From: Kangiella sediminilitoris
GTDB taxonomy: Bacteria; Pseudomonadota; Gammaproteobacteria; Enterobacterales; Kangiellaceae
DNA: 64,000 nucleotides
Assembly (NCBI RefSeq): GCF_001708405.1
Contig: NZ_CP012418.1
Span: 2,356,001 to 2,420,000 of the forward strand
Direction of reading: 5' to 3'
The notes beneath the pieces were generated by a model. That model was not told the origin of the DNA. It searched no databases and saw only the letters and a list, made by a program, of their open reading frames with translations. The translations under genes and the position numbers were made by a program. Below, one piece after another: positions 18,984 to 24,353 of the stretch (position 1 is the stretch's first letter; each line of letters opens with the position of its first letter).

Positions 18984-19188
18984 CTTTTGAAGTCTATAGT
19001 CTTGATACAACCGTGCAATGCGCATCTGCATTAAAGCACAAACAACTCGTCATGATCTGGGGCGGAGCAAACTCCATACAAGGCTACAGCGACTATAGGT
19101 GGCACTACTAGTGTTAAAGGACTTGGCTCACCGGGGCTGATCCTGCATTTGATGAAGGATGTTTGTCGATAATGTGCTTGAAAAAAAA

Positions 19189-19210
19189 ACGCCATAAGAA
19201 TGGCGTTTTT
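19189..19210. terminator. Bidirectional terminator
   Basis: ACGCCAT (19189-19195), loop AAGA, ATGGCGT (19200-19206), with a nine-A run before and a T-run after. It can end transcripts from both the serine hydrolase pair and the minus-strand proteasome-like operon. Confidence 0.75.
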
Positions 19211-19237
19211 GTAGCTACGAATTTTGTTAGTTCTTTC

Positions 19238-19381
19238 CTACCAGCTCTTTAAAGCATTCTCCATAACTTGGGTAGAATCTTCCATTTTTTTATTTTCATT
19301 TCTGAAAAAACGACGCTCTATCAAATCCTTACGATCTAGTTTGCGGCTTTTTTCCTTCTTAGTTTCTGTTCCTAACATCAT
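19238..19381 (-). CDS. Small charged protein encoded downstream of the proteasome-like protein
   Basis: A predicted 47-residue, very charged protein (MMLGTETKKEKSRKLDRKD at its start, ALKSW at its end), with no hydrophobic segment. It begins 16 bases after the proteasome-like gene and has GGGGG before two adjacent ATG codons, so it is likely to be translated from the same mRNA. The same frame is open further upstream, but that part overlaps the larger gene and is unlikely to be used. No known family. An adaptor, regulator or substrate tag for the upstream protein is a guess. Confidence 0.5.
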   Translation of the reverse strand: MMLGTETKKEKSRKLDRKDLIERRFFRNENKKMEDSTQVMENALKSW

Positions 19382-19397
19382 AGTTTTCCCCCTTGCG

Positions 19398-20696
19398 TTA
19401 ATGCCTATAATAGTTATCAAAAAAGTGTCGATTGAACTCCGGTTTGAAGTAATGCTTCCTTTTAACCCAAACAAAACCGTCACCTTTCGAAATAACTGCA
19501 ACATCTACAGGACCACCAACGGATTCTGCAGCATCTGACATTTTCATCCTTAATGCTACCATACTTACTAATGATTCTGCCATCTCTATTAACTCATTCT
19601 TTGGTAAAGAGTTTATTACACTTGCCATTGGGCTTAAGTGCTCACTAACAATATAGCTAGAAATATCTTCTTTACTGGATTCCGCACATTTACTCATTTC
19701 TTCTACTAGCTTATCGGTATCAAACTCAATTTCCGCTAACTTTTGCAGTGCACCACTGTCTTTTAATAAAGATATGTATTGATTTTTAAGTGTATTACTA
19801 TATTCATATATATACCCTTCTAGAATTGGATCTACACCTCTTATAAAACTCCTAGCAGTGTTGGTTTGTGCAAATGTAATTACATCGCCTTGGCAGCCTT
19901 CTTCGTTGGTGCTTTCATGGATAGAAGATTGAGATTTTCTTATTTTGTTATTGAACATTACTCCGACATTAAAAGCCTGAAGTTGTGGAAATAATTCTTC
20001 TTTCCCGTATCCAGCTATTACTACCTCACTATATACAATAAAACTTCTTCGAATTATTAATTCTCCGAGTAAATCGACTAAAGTTTTAAAATCTTCATCT
20101 TTGAACTGCTCAACCGCATAACCCAATATTGATTTAGACATATCAATAACAGTATCTGAATACTCTTCTATGAACTTCTCTTTGTCTTCATCATTAAAGT
20201 TTTTTAATATCTCACCTTCTTTAGCTTTTTCTTTCTCATTATCAATCAATTGTAAAGTCAACTCATATGCTCGAGCTTTCAACTTCTGATAATCAAGCTC
20301 TTGATCTAGCTCTTTATCAAAGCAATTCAATATTAACTTCTTTAGTGACTCGATTTGCTGCCCCACTCTCTTCTCACATAAACTTCTCTGTACATTTTCA
20401 GTAAAGTATTTACTCCCATTACCAACCTCTAAGTATGACCAAAAATGCTCTACATACTCAGAGAGAGTACTAAATACACCGTCCCTAAGCTCTTCTCTAA
20501 AGTCTTTTATTAAAGTTTCCCAAGGAACATGCATGTAGTGACTTGAACCATTGATCATAATTCCTATAGGTTCATATTTAGAAAGCATGAATAATTTATT
20601 TGCTGTATTGTATACTTTTCCATTATTTAAAGTTGCTGCACTATCAGCGGCTAAAGCAACTCCATATTGGTTAATCACTGCTACTTCTGCTGTCAT
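19398..20696 (-). CDS. Proteasome-superfamily Ntn-hydrolase-like protein, unusually large
   Basis: A 432-residue protein with no signal peptide. Met1 is followed directly by Thr. Numbering from that Thr, T1, D17 (in ALAADSAAT) and K33 (in NTANKLF) fall at exactly the positions of the proteasome beta / HslV active site. GIMINGSS near 45-52 would be the substrate-binding glycine strand. Residues about 60-215 are a long helical insertion. The second half of the fold then seems to resume: VVIAGYGKEELFPQLQAF near 225, and a last helix and strand, GGPVDVAVISKGDGFVWV near 394. Its 432 residues are about twice the length of HslV or a beta subunit. AAGGAG precedes the ATG. Lower GC than its neighbours suggests transfer. 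No unfoldase gene is nearby. Confidence 0.75.
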   Translation of the reverse strand: MTAEVAVINQYGVALAADSAATLNNGKVYNTANKLFMLSKYEPIGIMINGSSHYMHVPWETLIKDFREELRDGVFSTLSEYVEHFWSYLEVGNGSKYFTENVQRSLCEKRVGQQIESLKKLILNCFDKELDQELDYQKLKARAYELTLQLIDNEKEKAKEGEILKNFNDEDKEKFIEEYSDTVIDMSKSILGYAVEQFKDEDFKTLVDLLGELIIRRSFIVYSEVVIAGYGKEELFPQLQAFNVGVMFNNKIRKSQSSIHESTNEEGCQGDVITFAQTNTARSFIRGVDPILEGYIYEYSNTLKNQYISLLKDSGALQKLAEIEFDTDKLVEEMSKCAESSKEDISSYIVSEHLSPMASVINSLPKNELIEMAESLVSMVALRMKMSDAAESVGGPVDVAVISKGDGFVWVKRKHYFKPEFNRHFFDNYYRH

Positions 20697-20818
20697 TATT
20701 ATCTCCTTTTTTATTTATTTTTATCGTTCATTAGTACTAACTTACCACTAACCCGCTAATTTAATAAAGCCTCTTATAGTTGACACGTTAAACGGTCATT
20801 TCAACGTATACAAAATTA

Positions 20819-20848
20819 ATGGGGTAGAGTACAATTTACTCGCCCCAT
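20819..20848 (-). terminator. Terminator of the RhlE-like helicase gene
   Basis: GGGG-TAGAGTA and TACTCG-CCCC arms form a long hairpin 28 bases past the helicase stop on the minus strand, followed there by TTAATTTT. Confidence 0.65.
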
Positions 20849-20876
20849 TTATTACTTAAATGACATACCGAGTTCG

Positions 20877-22262
20877 TTAACCGTTTTTGTTCCGGTTTTT
20901 ATTCGCACTCTTATTGATCGGTTTCTTCTTACTCGGTTTTCTTTTAACTGTAGATTTTCCTTTATTCGCTGACTTGCCTTTATAACCGTTCTTGCCTCTT
21001 TTGGGTTGGCTTCCTTTATCTTTATTACTGCCTGATTTTTTGCCTGATTCTTTCAGCTTTGCTTTAGCCAGTTTCTTTTTATGGGGCTTCTTTTTCTTTG
21101 CGGCTTTTAGATCCGTTTCAGGAACTGAATGAATCGGCTCGAAGTCGTCGACAATTCTTCTTTCTAATTGTTTTTGGATCAGGTTCTGGATCGCTTTTAG
21201 ATCATCGACTTCATCGGCGCTGACTAAGGAAATTGCGTGGCCTTTTTCTCCGGCACGACCGGTACGGCCAATACGATGAACATAATCTTCGGCGACGTTT
21301 GGTAGATCGTAGTTCACTACCACTGGCATTTGATCAATATCGAGCCCGCGTGCAGCGACGTCGGTCGCGACTAAGGCATGAACCTTGCCCGATTTAAATT
21401 CCTGTAACGCACGGTTACGCGCGTTCTGGCTTTTACCGCCATGAATCGAGGTGGCTTTTATGCCGCGCTTTTCCAGCGCAAGGCTTAACCTGTTCGCGCC
21501 TCGGCGCGTTCTGACGAATACCAGCAGCTGATGCCAGCGATGGTCTTCGATCAAATGGCTCAGCAGGGCAGCTTTCTGTTTTTTATCGACCGGGTGTATC
21601 CACTGTTTGACCGTTGACGCGGTGGTATTGGTGGTTTCCGTTTCAATCAGTTTCGGATTGTTTAGGAACTGCTGACTTAATTTTTTAATTGACTCGGAGA
21701 AGGTCGCAGAAAAAAGTAGCGTTTGGCGCTGTTTAGGCAGTTTTCCGATAATACGTTTAATGCTCGGTAAAAAGCCCATATCCAACATGCGATCCGCTTC
21801 GTCCAGGACTAGAAGCTCCAGATCATCAAAACGCACGGCATTCTTTTCCATCAGATCCAGTAATCGCCCTGGTGTCGCCACCAGCACGTCCGTACCTTTT
21901 CGTAGTTTCAGCATCTGTGGATTAATTTTTACACCACCGTACACCACCATGGATTTTAGCGATAAGTTAGCGGCATATTTTTGTACGCTCTGATGTACCT
22001 GCTCCGCCAGCTCTCGCGTCGGCGCTAGAATCAAACTACGCGCTGAATTCCCCGCTGGCCTTTTACCCTCCGACAGCCTCTGCAACATAGGAAGCGCAAA
22101 ACCCGCGGTTTTACCCGTCCCCGTCTGCGCGGCCGCCATAATATCCTCGCCAGCGAGGATCAGAGGAATCGCTTTCTGCTGGATTGGGGAAGGTTTTTCG
22201 TAGCCGCTCTTGTGCAAGGCATCGAGAAGGGGTTGGATCAAATTAAGGTTAGAAAAGGTCAT
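20877..22262 (-). CDS. DEAD-box RNA helicase, RhlE-like
   Basis: A 461-residue ATP-dependent RNA helicase. It carries the Q motif (YEKPSPIQ), motif I AQTGTGKT, Ia PTRELAEQ, Ib TPGR, II DEAD, III SAT, V ARGLDI and VI HRIGRTGR in order. The last 90 residues are a Lys/Ser/Gly-rich tail that should bind RNA non-specifically. It belongs to the RhlE group, with roles in ribosome assembly and cold growth. An in-frame TTG one codon upstream is less likely than the ATG at 22262. No strong ribosome binding site is visible. Confidence 0.88.
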   Translation of the reverse strand: MTFSNLNLIQPLLDALHKSGYEKPSPIQQKAIPLILAGEDIMAAAQTGTGKTAGFALPMLQRLSEGKRPAGNSARSLILAPTRELAEQVHQSVQKYAANLSLKSMVVYGGVKINPQMLKLRKGTDVLVATPGRLLDLMEKNAVRFDDLELLVLDEADRMLDMGFLPSIKRIIGKLPKQRQTLLFSATFSESIKKLSQQFLNNPKLIETETTNTTASTVKQWIHPVDKKQKAALLSHLIEDHRWHQLLVFVRTRRGANRLSLALEKRGIKATSIHGGKSQNARNRALQEFKSGKVHALVATDVAARGLDIDQMPVVVNYDLPNVAEDYVHRIGRTGRAGEKGHAISLVSADEVDDLKAIQNLIQKQLERRIVDDFEPIHSVPETDLKAAKKKKPHKKKLAKAKLKESGKKSGSNKDKGSQPKRGKNGYKGKSANKGKSTVKRKPSKKKPINKSANKNRNKNG

Positions 22263-22403: not shown

Positions 22404-24353
22404 TTACCTTGCCTTTAAAACGGCATCTTTGCCGGGGCCGCGTTCTCTTTCGTCGGCTGGTATTAGCGTTACGCCATTATCATCGCAAGAGGCAATCCAC
22501 TGGCCACCACCGCCGACGTAGGACGAGTGTTTATTGCTGCCCCCGAAGGTTTGTGGTCCATCCGACACGGGGCCTTCGACTGTACCCTTGTAGGTAAAGT
22601 CTTGCAGGTCAATTTTTAGCACACCGTTCTCAATTATCCACTCACCGGAATGGATATAGGTATTGTAATTAACGGTACTTTTACCGTCTGTAAGCGTATG
22701 AGGATCTTCGATGATGAACGAACCGCCAGGCTTAAAAGTGACTATCGGGCCATCGTTATCGTAAGTGACCTCTCCTTCACCACCCAGCTCAAAAATCTGC
22801 TCGGCAGCTCCTCGAAAGCGGAATCGGTCCTTGGTGTCCGACGATTGGATCATCTGCTTGGCCTTTTCCAACTCAGCAAGCTGATCCGGCGGTACCATGC
22901 CGCGGTACATCTCAATTGCTTCGAGCGCGCCATCGAAGGTATCTTCGGCTTCATCATCCGCCGTGGCCTGCTCCATCCAACTGCCAATATGACAGGCGCA
23001 GGTTAAGCCCCCGCTATTATCCAGCGACATGGTGACGTTTAGATCTTCGCCCGATGGCATGATGGCGGCAATTTGCATCGGGCCACTTGGCGGTTCCAGC
23101 TCGGTCGTATCAGAGACTGGCGCCCATTTACTGGGTTCACCACTTCCATTCGGGTCTACCACATAGCGATAGGCCAATTGAGCGCCATTTGGATTAATGG
23201 TTAATGGCGACGCAGCGCCTTCCGGGAAGGTTACTTCGCGCAACTGTACCGACAGCGGCGGCCCCTCGATGGTCGTCTCGCAAGAACCGGTAATCCTTAG
23301 CGGCTCGAACTCTGCCTTGTGTGGTAAAGGTCGACCATCGGGCATGGTGATACTCTGATCAGCCTGAGCTATCGCCCACTCCAGCCATTGCGCTGGTGGT
23401 AGAATTTCCGCAGCACGGCGTGGGTATTTCAGGTATTCCGGTCCAGCCATGCCTAAAGAGATCCCCCAGTCGGTTCCGTATTCCTGCTCACCCCAGAAAA
23501 AGAATGGCTGGGCGTCATAACTGTGTTGAGTCAGCGAACATTCCGGCTGGCGATCAAAGAATTGCTCAATCTTATGATCTCGAATATCAGAACCTTCGAT
23601 GACTTTATGCGCGCCCCACTCCGCAGAGCCCTCCTGCCACCACAATGGCTTCTCAGTAAAGTCATAAGAACCGCTCTGCATCGTATGTACCCACTCGTGA
23701 GCCAGCACAAAGCGCATCTCCTCGGCACTGTCGATGGTATGCGATCGAACGGCAACTATACACAGGCTCTCTGGCAGCGGGACTGCACGCTCTATTACTT
23801 CCCCATCCTCATCCACTTCGACGAAACTGTTTAAATCATGCATTTCCCCTTTTTCGGCACAGGTTGTGAACGCCAGGGTACTGCCCAAAAGGTCAAGGTC
23901 GCTTTCAACTAGCAAGACAGGACGATCGGGAGGAGTCGGTACATACTTCAATTCATCTTCATCTCCGCTTTCTACCCGTTCCAGAGCTTCCTCACGCTCC
24001 GCGGCAGTCGGGAAATAACGTTGAAACTCTTCAATGCGCGGAGCAATTGCTCGCAGATGTTCCAGCACGCTATCCCTGGTGCGTCTATCACTACGCTTAC
24101 GCACCCGATAAATCATCTGATCGCCGATCTGAAAATCCACCGGCTCGATTTCACCCATACTGGCGATTTCATTCATGTGGGCATCCCAGATTGCTGTAGA
24201 AGTACCACCACCGGGAGGCGTCGTGCAGACAGCATTGGCCGCCGGGATTGCCATCATTAAACCTATGAGACCCGCAATCGCTGTCGTGTAGAAACGCTTC
24301 CCGCTCGTTTGCCCCAAACTAAACGAAGGAATAAATTTTGATTTCATATCCAT
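22404..24353 (-). CDS. Secreted HEXXH metalloprotease-like protein
   Basis: A 649-residue exported protein (signal peptide to about residue 41, IPAANA). Near residue 220 LAHEWVHTMQ is a zinc-binding HEXXH helix, and WWQEGSAEWGAH about 25 residues later supplies the third ligand Glu, as in gluzincins. The C-terminal half is beta-rich with a GGSFIIED strand and no second catalytic signature; C-terminal Cys are few. Probably an outer-surface or extracellular zinc peptidase, fitting a protein-degrading lifestyle. AGGTG precedes the first ATG; the ATG two codons later is possible. Family name is not known to me, so the function is inferred from the motif. Confidence 0.65.
   Translation of the reverse strand: MDMKSKFIPSFSLGQTSGKRFYTTAIAGLIGLMMAIPAANAVCTTPPGGGTSTAIWDAHMNEIASMGEIEPVDFQIGDQMIYRVRKRSDRRTRDSVLEHLRAIAPRIEEFQRYFPTAAEREEALERVESGDEDELKYVPTPPDRPVLLVESDLDLLGSTLAFTTCAEKGEMHDLNSFVEVDEDGEVIERAVPLPESLCIVAVRSHTIDSAEEMRFVLAHEWVHTMQSGSYDFTEKPLWWQEGSAEWGAHKVIEGSDIRDHKIEQFFDRQPECSLTQHSYDAQPFFFWGEQEYGTDWGISLGMAGPEYLKYPRRAAEILPPAQWLEWAIAQADQSITMPDGRPLPHKAEFEPLRITGSCETTIEGPPLSVQLREVTFPEGAASPLTINPNGAQLAYRYVVDPNGSGEPSKWAPVSDTTELEPPSGPMQIAAIMPSGEDLNVTMSLDNSGGLTCACHIGSWMEQATADDEAEDTFDGALEAIEMYRGMVPPDQLAELEKAKQMIQSSDTKDRFRFRGAAEQIFELGGEGEVTYDNDGPIVTFKPGGSFIIEDPHTLTDGKSTVNYNTYIHSGEWIIENGVLKIDLQDFTYKGTVEGPVSDGPQTFGGSNKHSSYVGGGGQWIASCDDNGVTLIPADERERGPGKDAVLKAR

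Follow-up and report, generated by a model that had tools for sequence, protein, structure and literature searches.

The window analysed here is a stretch of 64,000 nucleotides from the genome of Kangiella sediminilitoris (contig NZ_CP012418.1, positions 2,356,001 to 2,420,000). On its minus strand, it carries two adjacent genes, one for an enlarged protein with a predicted proteasome-like fold and one for a very small protein, which are arranged as follows.

20701..20708, minus strand: ribosome-binding site AAGGAGAT of the large gene, read from the sequence
19398..20696, minus strand: gene for a putative proteasome-like Thr hydrolase, very probably of the PMI type (432 aa), recognised as an ORF with a match to phrog_5990, by its predicted fold and by the invariant T1/D17/K33 columns
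20031..20426, minus strand: first helical insertion, residues ~91-222, after H2, from the secondary structure of the model, with H2 and S6 assigned by element order
19602..19838, minus strand: second helical insertion, residues ~287-365, between H3 and H4, from the secondary structure of the model, with approximate borders
19388..19394, minus strand: ribosome-binding site AAGGGGG of the small ORF, read from the sequence
19238..19381, minus strand: small partner ORF (47 aa), supported by small ORFs at the equivalent position in 59 of the 63 testable clusters of homologues and by a coding substitution pattern
19185..19210, minus strand: terminator-like hairpin with a U run, 3' of the small ORF, from a folding-energy calculation

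The large ORF translates into 432 residues with the N-terminus M-T. The small ORF begins 16 nt past its stop codon, with AAGGGGG preceding an ATG-ATG, just as a previous sequence-only reading of this DNA had described it (47 residues, a ribosome-binding site of its own). A hairpin with an 11-bp stem and a U run follows 27 nt 3' of the small ORF (-14.5 kcal/mol for a 66-nt stretch, z -3.45); the same hairpin was absent from the results of a pattern-based scan, and a promoter scan listed no minus-strand site.

The sequence-only reading had also placed the pair in an AT-rich accessory region, and both parts of this description hold. The GC content is 35.3% at positions 19001-21000, compared with ~44% across most of the window. 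In the closest genome of the same genus, the neighbouring helicase is 96% identical, and DNA similarity stops at position 20877, the helicase stop codon, to resume in a 129-bp block (19038-19166), with ~2.2 kb of other sequence in between. None of the 19 other genomes of this genus contained a match to phrog_5990. Judged by these comparisons, the locus of the pair is a strain-specific insertion. A Pfam scan of ten neighbouring proteins, representing part of the ORFs in the window, identified a DEAD-box helicase and no unfoldase, in line with the earlier remark that no AAA unfoldase is near. The same genome encodes a separate HslV of ~180 aa, located beside a 445-aa ORF that we take to be HslU. 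Convergent to the pair lie two adjacent plus-strand genes of the serine beta-lactamase family (PF00144; 16421-17860 and 17865-18983), and comparison with a 16 kb stretch from the closest relative gave no match to the block from ~14.4 to 19.0 kb. A 649-aa ORF at 22404-24353 on the minus strand, which has no Pfam match at E values up to 0.001, contains the sequence HEWVH, an HExxH-type motif familiar from zinc peptidases.

Our results indicate that the large protein is a proteasome beta-like Ntn hydrolase in its predicted fold. The structure prediction proposed as a check in the sequence-only reading, made with AlphaFold from a 52-row alignment drawn from the window, one genome contig and viral contigs, yielded a confident model of the 432-aa monomer (pLDDT 88.5, pTM 0.84). 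All 50 PDB matches listed by Foldseek were proteasome or Anbu entries, 22 of them at E values up to 0.001 (best E 4e-5); TM-scores were low (0.25-0.30 by query, 0.40-0.58 by target) and rmsd values high because the alignments span the insertions. VIA-align, which re-aligns the chains ranked by Foldseek, a ranking outside which lie families such as HslV, BPH and connectase, gave Z scores of ~17 to proteasome beta subunits and its best row for the Anbu chain 5nyw_B (Z 17.2, 198 residues aligned, rmsd 3.5), with residue 2 superimposed on residue 1, the Thr1 position, in most rows.

The putative active site is strictly conserved. When homologues from 107 loci were grouped into 65 clusters at 80% identity and counted as one sequence per cluster, window residues 2, 18, 19 and 34 were T, D, S and K in all 65 representatives. 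Numbering from the Thr after the initial Met puts the Asp at position 17 and the Lys at position 33 in the window protein, as the sequence-only reading had stated for proteasome numbering, and no homologue lacking T1, D17 or K33 was found among the 65 clusters. The number of the Lys column varies among homologues because the length of a loop varies, and it is 37 before Met removal in two E. coli alleles. The glycine that had been noted near position 49 is present in the window protein and proved less fixed across the family (residue 50 is G in 45 and N in 16 of the 65 clusters). The late segment singled out at the same time stands, with its GGP..D element conserved (P396 in 65/65, G395 and D398 each in 62/65 clusters). 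A chance spacing of T1/D17/K33 is ruled out by the predicted fold together with this conservation.

The suggestion that the Thr becomes exposed by Met removal likewise gained support. A start codon immediately 5' of the Thr is present in 65/65 clusters (ATG in 53, TTG in 8, GTG in 4); the start finder favoured Met-Thr starts, and a separate codon check was unbiased in this respect. In one E. coli prophage (L168), RefSeq annotates the large gene from a start 99 nt further 5' than the Met-Thr start of the family. Met removal alone would thus expose Thr1 and presumably generate an active enzyme.

At the sequence level, the kinship is distant. At E values up to 1, NCBIfam and PADLOC profiles gave no match to the window protein and Pfam returned two noise rows, with PF00227 not among them; PF00227 matched four of 19 relatives weakly (best E 0.0061). 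In PHROGs v4, phrog_5990 covers residues 1-429 with an E value of 5.7e-100; this cluster has no assigned function and is silent on a small partner. Searching PDB sequences with the window protein alone produced noise only. A profile search against proteasome families had been recommended. With a profile of 19 relatives run against PDB sequences, the top three matches were archaeal proteasome beta subunits (E 0.015-0.018), whose register agrees both at the N-terminus and around GG.DVAVI..DG, followed by unrelated helical proteins, whereas a profile comparison with 11 HslV sequences stayed below significance (E 0.12-0.17). The kinship to the proteasome therefore rests on the fold, the active site and the weak match to beta subunits. 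An HslV paralogue is ruled out by the size of 432 aa, the insertions, the HslV profile comparison and the fact that no unfoldase was seen nearby.

A distinctive feature of the protein is its enlargement. The sequence-only reading had proposed that ~150 helical residues are inserted into the fold; helical insertions are indeed predicted, although they total ~200 residues at two sites (~130 after H2 and ~75 between H3 and H4). Helices at residues 59-70 and 78-90 precede the first of them. In 2021, Fuchs, Alva and Lupas named 22 new proteasome-like families (PMC8665760), among them PMI-4 (Proteasome homolog with Multiple Insertions variant 4, 501 sequences at nr90). According to the accessible part of that survey, both insertion sites are common to PMI-3 and PMI-4, and of these two Table 1 marks phages and most bacterial phyla for PMI-4 only. 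The element order in our model shows the two insertions, a feature that PMI-3 has as well. Relatives are found in Streptococcus, Porphyromonas, Providencia and Stenotrophomonas phages, in proteobacterial and Enterococcus plasmids and in Prevotellaceae, and the start codon abutting the Thr in every cluster agrees with the lack of a propeptide in PMI-4. Since both insertions are combined with a spread over phages and phyla that sets PMI-4 apart from PMI-3, the window protein very probably belongs to this family, to which it was matched by description, not by comparison with the representative HDY66466.1. The earlier claim of a distinct, undescribed branch thus needs to be divided: the protein is distinct from HslV, and, because the named family PMI-4 fits, the branch as such is not undescribed. 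The parts of the survey consulted report neither a function nor an informative genomic context for its families, and they name no partner gene (PMC8665760).

Better-known relatives share some features with the window protein and differ in others. Anbu, the source of the best VIA-align row, consists of compact chains of 228-241 residues without the two large insertions of the window protein. HslV aligns at the N-terminus in the register of Thr1, Asp and Lys; however, it is compact, with ~180 aa, and encoded beside HslU. Connectase shares the proteasome-like nature and, in the accessible text of the survey, the monomer logic proposed for insertion-bearing members, but it is a methanogen ligase that lacks H1/H2 and has a two-helix insertion between S3 and S4 (PMC8665760), whereas the window model contains the helices at 59-70 and 78-90 and no S3/S4 insertion. 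In the family f54, short relatives (loci L148-L161, frames of ~250-335 aa) match both ends of phrog_5990, as if they lacked the insertions.

The survey of the small ORF that the sequence-only reading had called for demonstrates a pairing far more general than this one window. Two of the 65 clusters (L022, L056) have no sequence past the stop codon and were left out. In 59 of the 63 testable clusters, a small ORF on the same strand directly follows the large gene, starting between -23 and +80 nt from its stop codon and encoding 34-76 aa in 55 of the 59 cases (longest, 139). The four clusters without it are L005, L008, L026 and L065, and in L008, L026 and L065 the large protein extends further at its C-terminus. 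When a small ORF was counted only with a Shine-Dalgarno match of at least 4, a start between -25 and +40 and a length of 34-76 aa, it was scored in 46/63 clusters, compared with 74/549 control genes, for which the remaining ORFs of at least 150 aa, called mechanically at the same loci, were used (Fisher p 7e-23). In 21 within-cluster pairs, substitutions in the small ORF were distributed as 107/74/248 over codon positions 1/2/3. By these sequence criteria, the small ORF is a genuine, if predicted, coding partner gene. The two E. coli copies opened contain small ORFs of 34 and 49 aa that are unannotated in RefSeq. Within the open-access PMC literature, we found no mention of this partner gene.

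The small proteins themselves are strongly diverged, and motifs emerge for subfamilies only, with a weak fit of the window ORF. A motif search on 49 of the 55 small proteins no longer than 76 aa scored 150.7 versus 98-112 and 228.1 versus 151-166 for eight shuffles at each of two widths, a lenient control because the search on the real set was allowed more starts and rounds. The idea of one universal motif is weakened accordingly, the motifs belonging to subfamilies, and a shared F-F motif including the window ORF was not upheld. A tandem read-through model left the small partner unplaced (pLDDT 30-50).

The pair is rare and scattered. The hydrolase gene is present in 13 of 50,697 phage records, including seven named satellite phages that measure 8-14 kb, and in 10 of 72,556 plasmid records, one of these a partial match. 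Viral contigs yielded 172 relatives among 204 pattern matches, of which 80 were kept. Ten of 398 genomes from the same phylum, including that of K. sediminilitoris itself, carry the gene (two with divergent copies only), as do 17 of 298 genomes of the family f54, six with full-length and eleven with short or weak copies. A DNA search, which will miss divergent alleles, detected it in 22/5,426 E. coli genomes; 13 of these matches cover one query in full and nine cover 12-15% of the queries, and the one genome opened among the nine encodes a full-length family member.

In the copy opened for the first E. coli allele (L168), the pair immediately follows the gene for a CI-like repressor within a Rac-type prophage. 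This arrangement is reminiscent, in position only, of RexAB in phage lambda, a gene pair located directly 3' of a CI-type repressor. In four of four opened E. coli genomes without the pair, the CI-adjacent slot holds other accessory genes, comprising, in one genome each, two hypothetical proteins; HTH, small membrane and HicB-like genes; a hypothetical protein and a fumD-named ORF; and KilA-N and a hypothetical protein. The opened copy of the second E. coli allele, likewise inside a prophage, has the gene for antiterminator Q on one side and the methylase, tRNA and holin genes on the other, and it points away from the late genes. Across the family, 17/62 clusters have a repressor-like gene in the same orientation no more than 1.5 kb upstream, a count made without a control, and two of these 17 are satellites with an HTH gene of 97-98 aa. 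In four phage contigs (L058, L059, L064, L087), the pair is isolated on the strand opposite to that of most neighbours, like an independent cargo unit. One plasmid copy (L030:8001-9220, R. leguminosarum TpK) is frame-broken towards its 3' end, while intact relatives exist. The niche of the family thus consists of cargo slots of temperate phages and satellites, together with plasmids and chromosomal islands. For P2 and P4, antiviral genes in variable slots or hotspots are established, according to the part of the source consulted (PMC9122126). A description of the mobile cargo niche of the present family was not found in the open-access PMC literature.

Five of the ten plasmid records with the gene also encode a ThiF-type E1 within ~3 kb, and a multiubiquitin gene is present in all four E1-bearing regions opened; four of the five records represent one homologous Rhizobium island, and Mesorhizobium provides a second arrangement. 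In the Mesorhizobium and Rhizobium plasmids L026, L028, L029 and L030, multiubiquitin, ThiF-type E1 and DUF6527 genes lie within ~3 kb, and a ClpP-like gene follows in three Rhizobium regions. Upstream of the Prevotellaceae copy lies another ClpP-like stretch (L002:23-703), which shares 36% identity with its Rhizobium counterpart. Such a ThiF-type E1 occurs in 110 plasmid records, so the conjugation operon does not need the proteasome-like gene.

A Pfam scan of the neighbours returned mixed functions and no recurring theme. Of the PADLOC families matched by 116 proteins around 11 chromosomal copies, the 25 of 31 listed include GmrSD-type type IV restriction (2), a TIR effector and candidate systems, with one restriction-type protein accounting for 11 of the rows; the 25 of 50 listed for 119 control proteins (ten regions of the same genomes) include UvrD/GajB, RTasHel and mad3. 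The 116-protein set left out three short ORFs near L164/L165 and the copies in L137, L141 and L142. The chromosomal neighbours lean towards a defence setting without proving one, and the control has matches as well.

The nearly constant association of an enlarged hydrolase with a tiny gene on mobile elements suggests a two-part system that helps the host. We consider the chances about even that the pair is a mobile cargo unit in which a PMI-type Thr hydrolase and a dedicated small protein block incoming phages; catalysis, the role of the partner and the anti-phage function are what we infer. In such a unit, the first gene would supply a proteasome beta-like Thr hydrolase, ready once Met is removed from Thr1, and the second a dedicated small protein that diverges quickly. 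The pair is held by temperate phages and satellites in slots that would suit expression in the lysogen, with copies also residing on plasmids and chromosomal islands, that in the window included. The bond attacked by Thr1 may be a peptide bond in one particular target. The helical insertions, which in PMI proteins are argued to hinder the standard double ring (PMC8665760, as far as accessible), would prevent closure of such a ring and could form a substrate or partner site. The small protein may either restrain the enzyme as an inhibitor or steer it to its target as an adaptor, and the outcome in the lysogen would be a block of the incoming phage by superinfection exclusion or abortive infection. 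The fact that the window protein matches no PADLOC model counts against a role in defence. Somewhat more tentatively, and short of an even chance, the pair could be a proteasome-based anti-phage immune unit of an undescribed kind that, in some Rhizobiales plasmids, sits beside a ubiquitin-like conjugation operon. Our search of the open-access PMC literature, outside which lie preprints and most subscription papers, found no paper on a function or phage role of this proteasome-like family.

Other roles would account for parts of this picture. Two genes on mobile elements, the second of them small and fast-diverging, could constitute an addiction pair that stabilises prophages, satellites and plasmids, with the Thr hydrolase harming the host unless held by a small inhibitor. 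This appears unlikely, given that typical toxin-antitoxin modules often place the antitoxin gene first and that the window copy has been retained as a solitary insert in the chromosome. It is slightly less probable still that the hydrolase is, similar to connectase, a specific protein ligase or processing enzyme, one that serves the host rather than defence and for which the small protein is a substrate or tag. Connectase is a proteasome-like relative that acts as a monomeric ligase (PMC8665760, accessible part), the insertions argue against a closed ring, and a co-encoded small protein could be a substrate; however, the small proteins have no universal motif, and the window model has the helices at 59-90 that connectase lacks and its insertions elsewhere.

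The repressor-like gene directly upstream in 17/62 clusters and in the Rac-type E. coli prophage raises the prospect of a lysis-lysogeny regulator, in which the hydrolase would cut the adjacent phage repressor or another switch protein, much as ImmA cuts ImmR. Yet in the 45 other clusters the available upstream sequence, which is short in some, contains no repressor-like gene up to 1.5 kb away, and the window, plasmid and Q-region copies have different neighbours. Cleavage of a repressor was rejected as a general role on these counts, and we regard regulation of the switch as improbable. The lowest probability among these alternatives goes to a lysogenic conversion gene that acts in metabolism or stress and has nothing to do with phages. 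Its presence on plasmids and at chromosomal loci such as the window would fit, but the sporadic occurrence (0/19 in the same genus, 22/5,426 in E. coli) and the very small satellite carriers would seem to suit conflict systems better.

The 2021 survey, in its accessible part, left 22 new families without a functional clue (PMC8665760). A conserved partner and a lysogeny-linked niche would turn one of the larger ones into a testable system. If a role in immunity were true, the proteasome fold would join the folds common to bacterial defence and eukaryotic protein surveillance. Natural hydrolase/small-ORF pairs exist in E. coli prophages, in which the unannotated small ORFs are located at L168:15322-15426 and L169:14264-14413.
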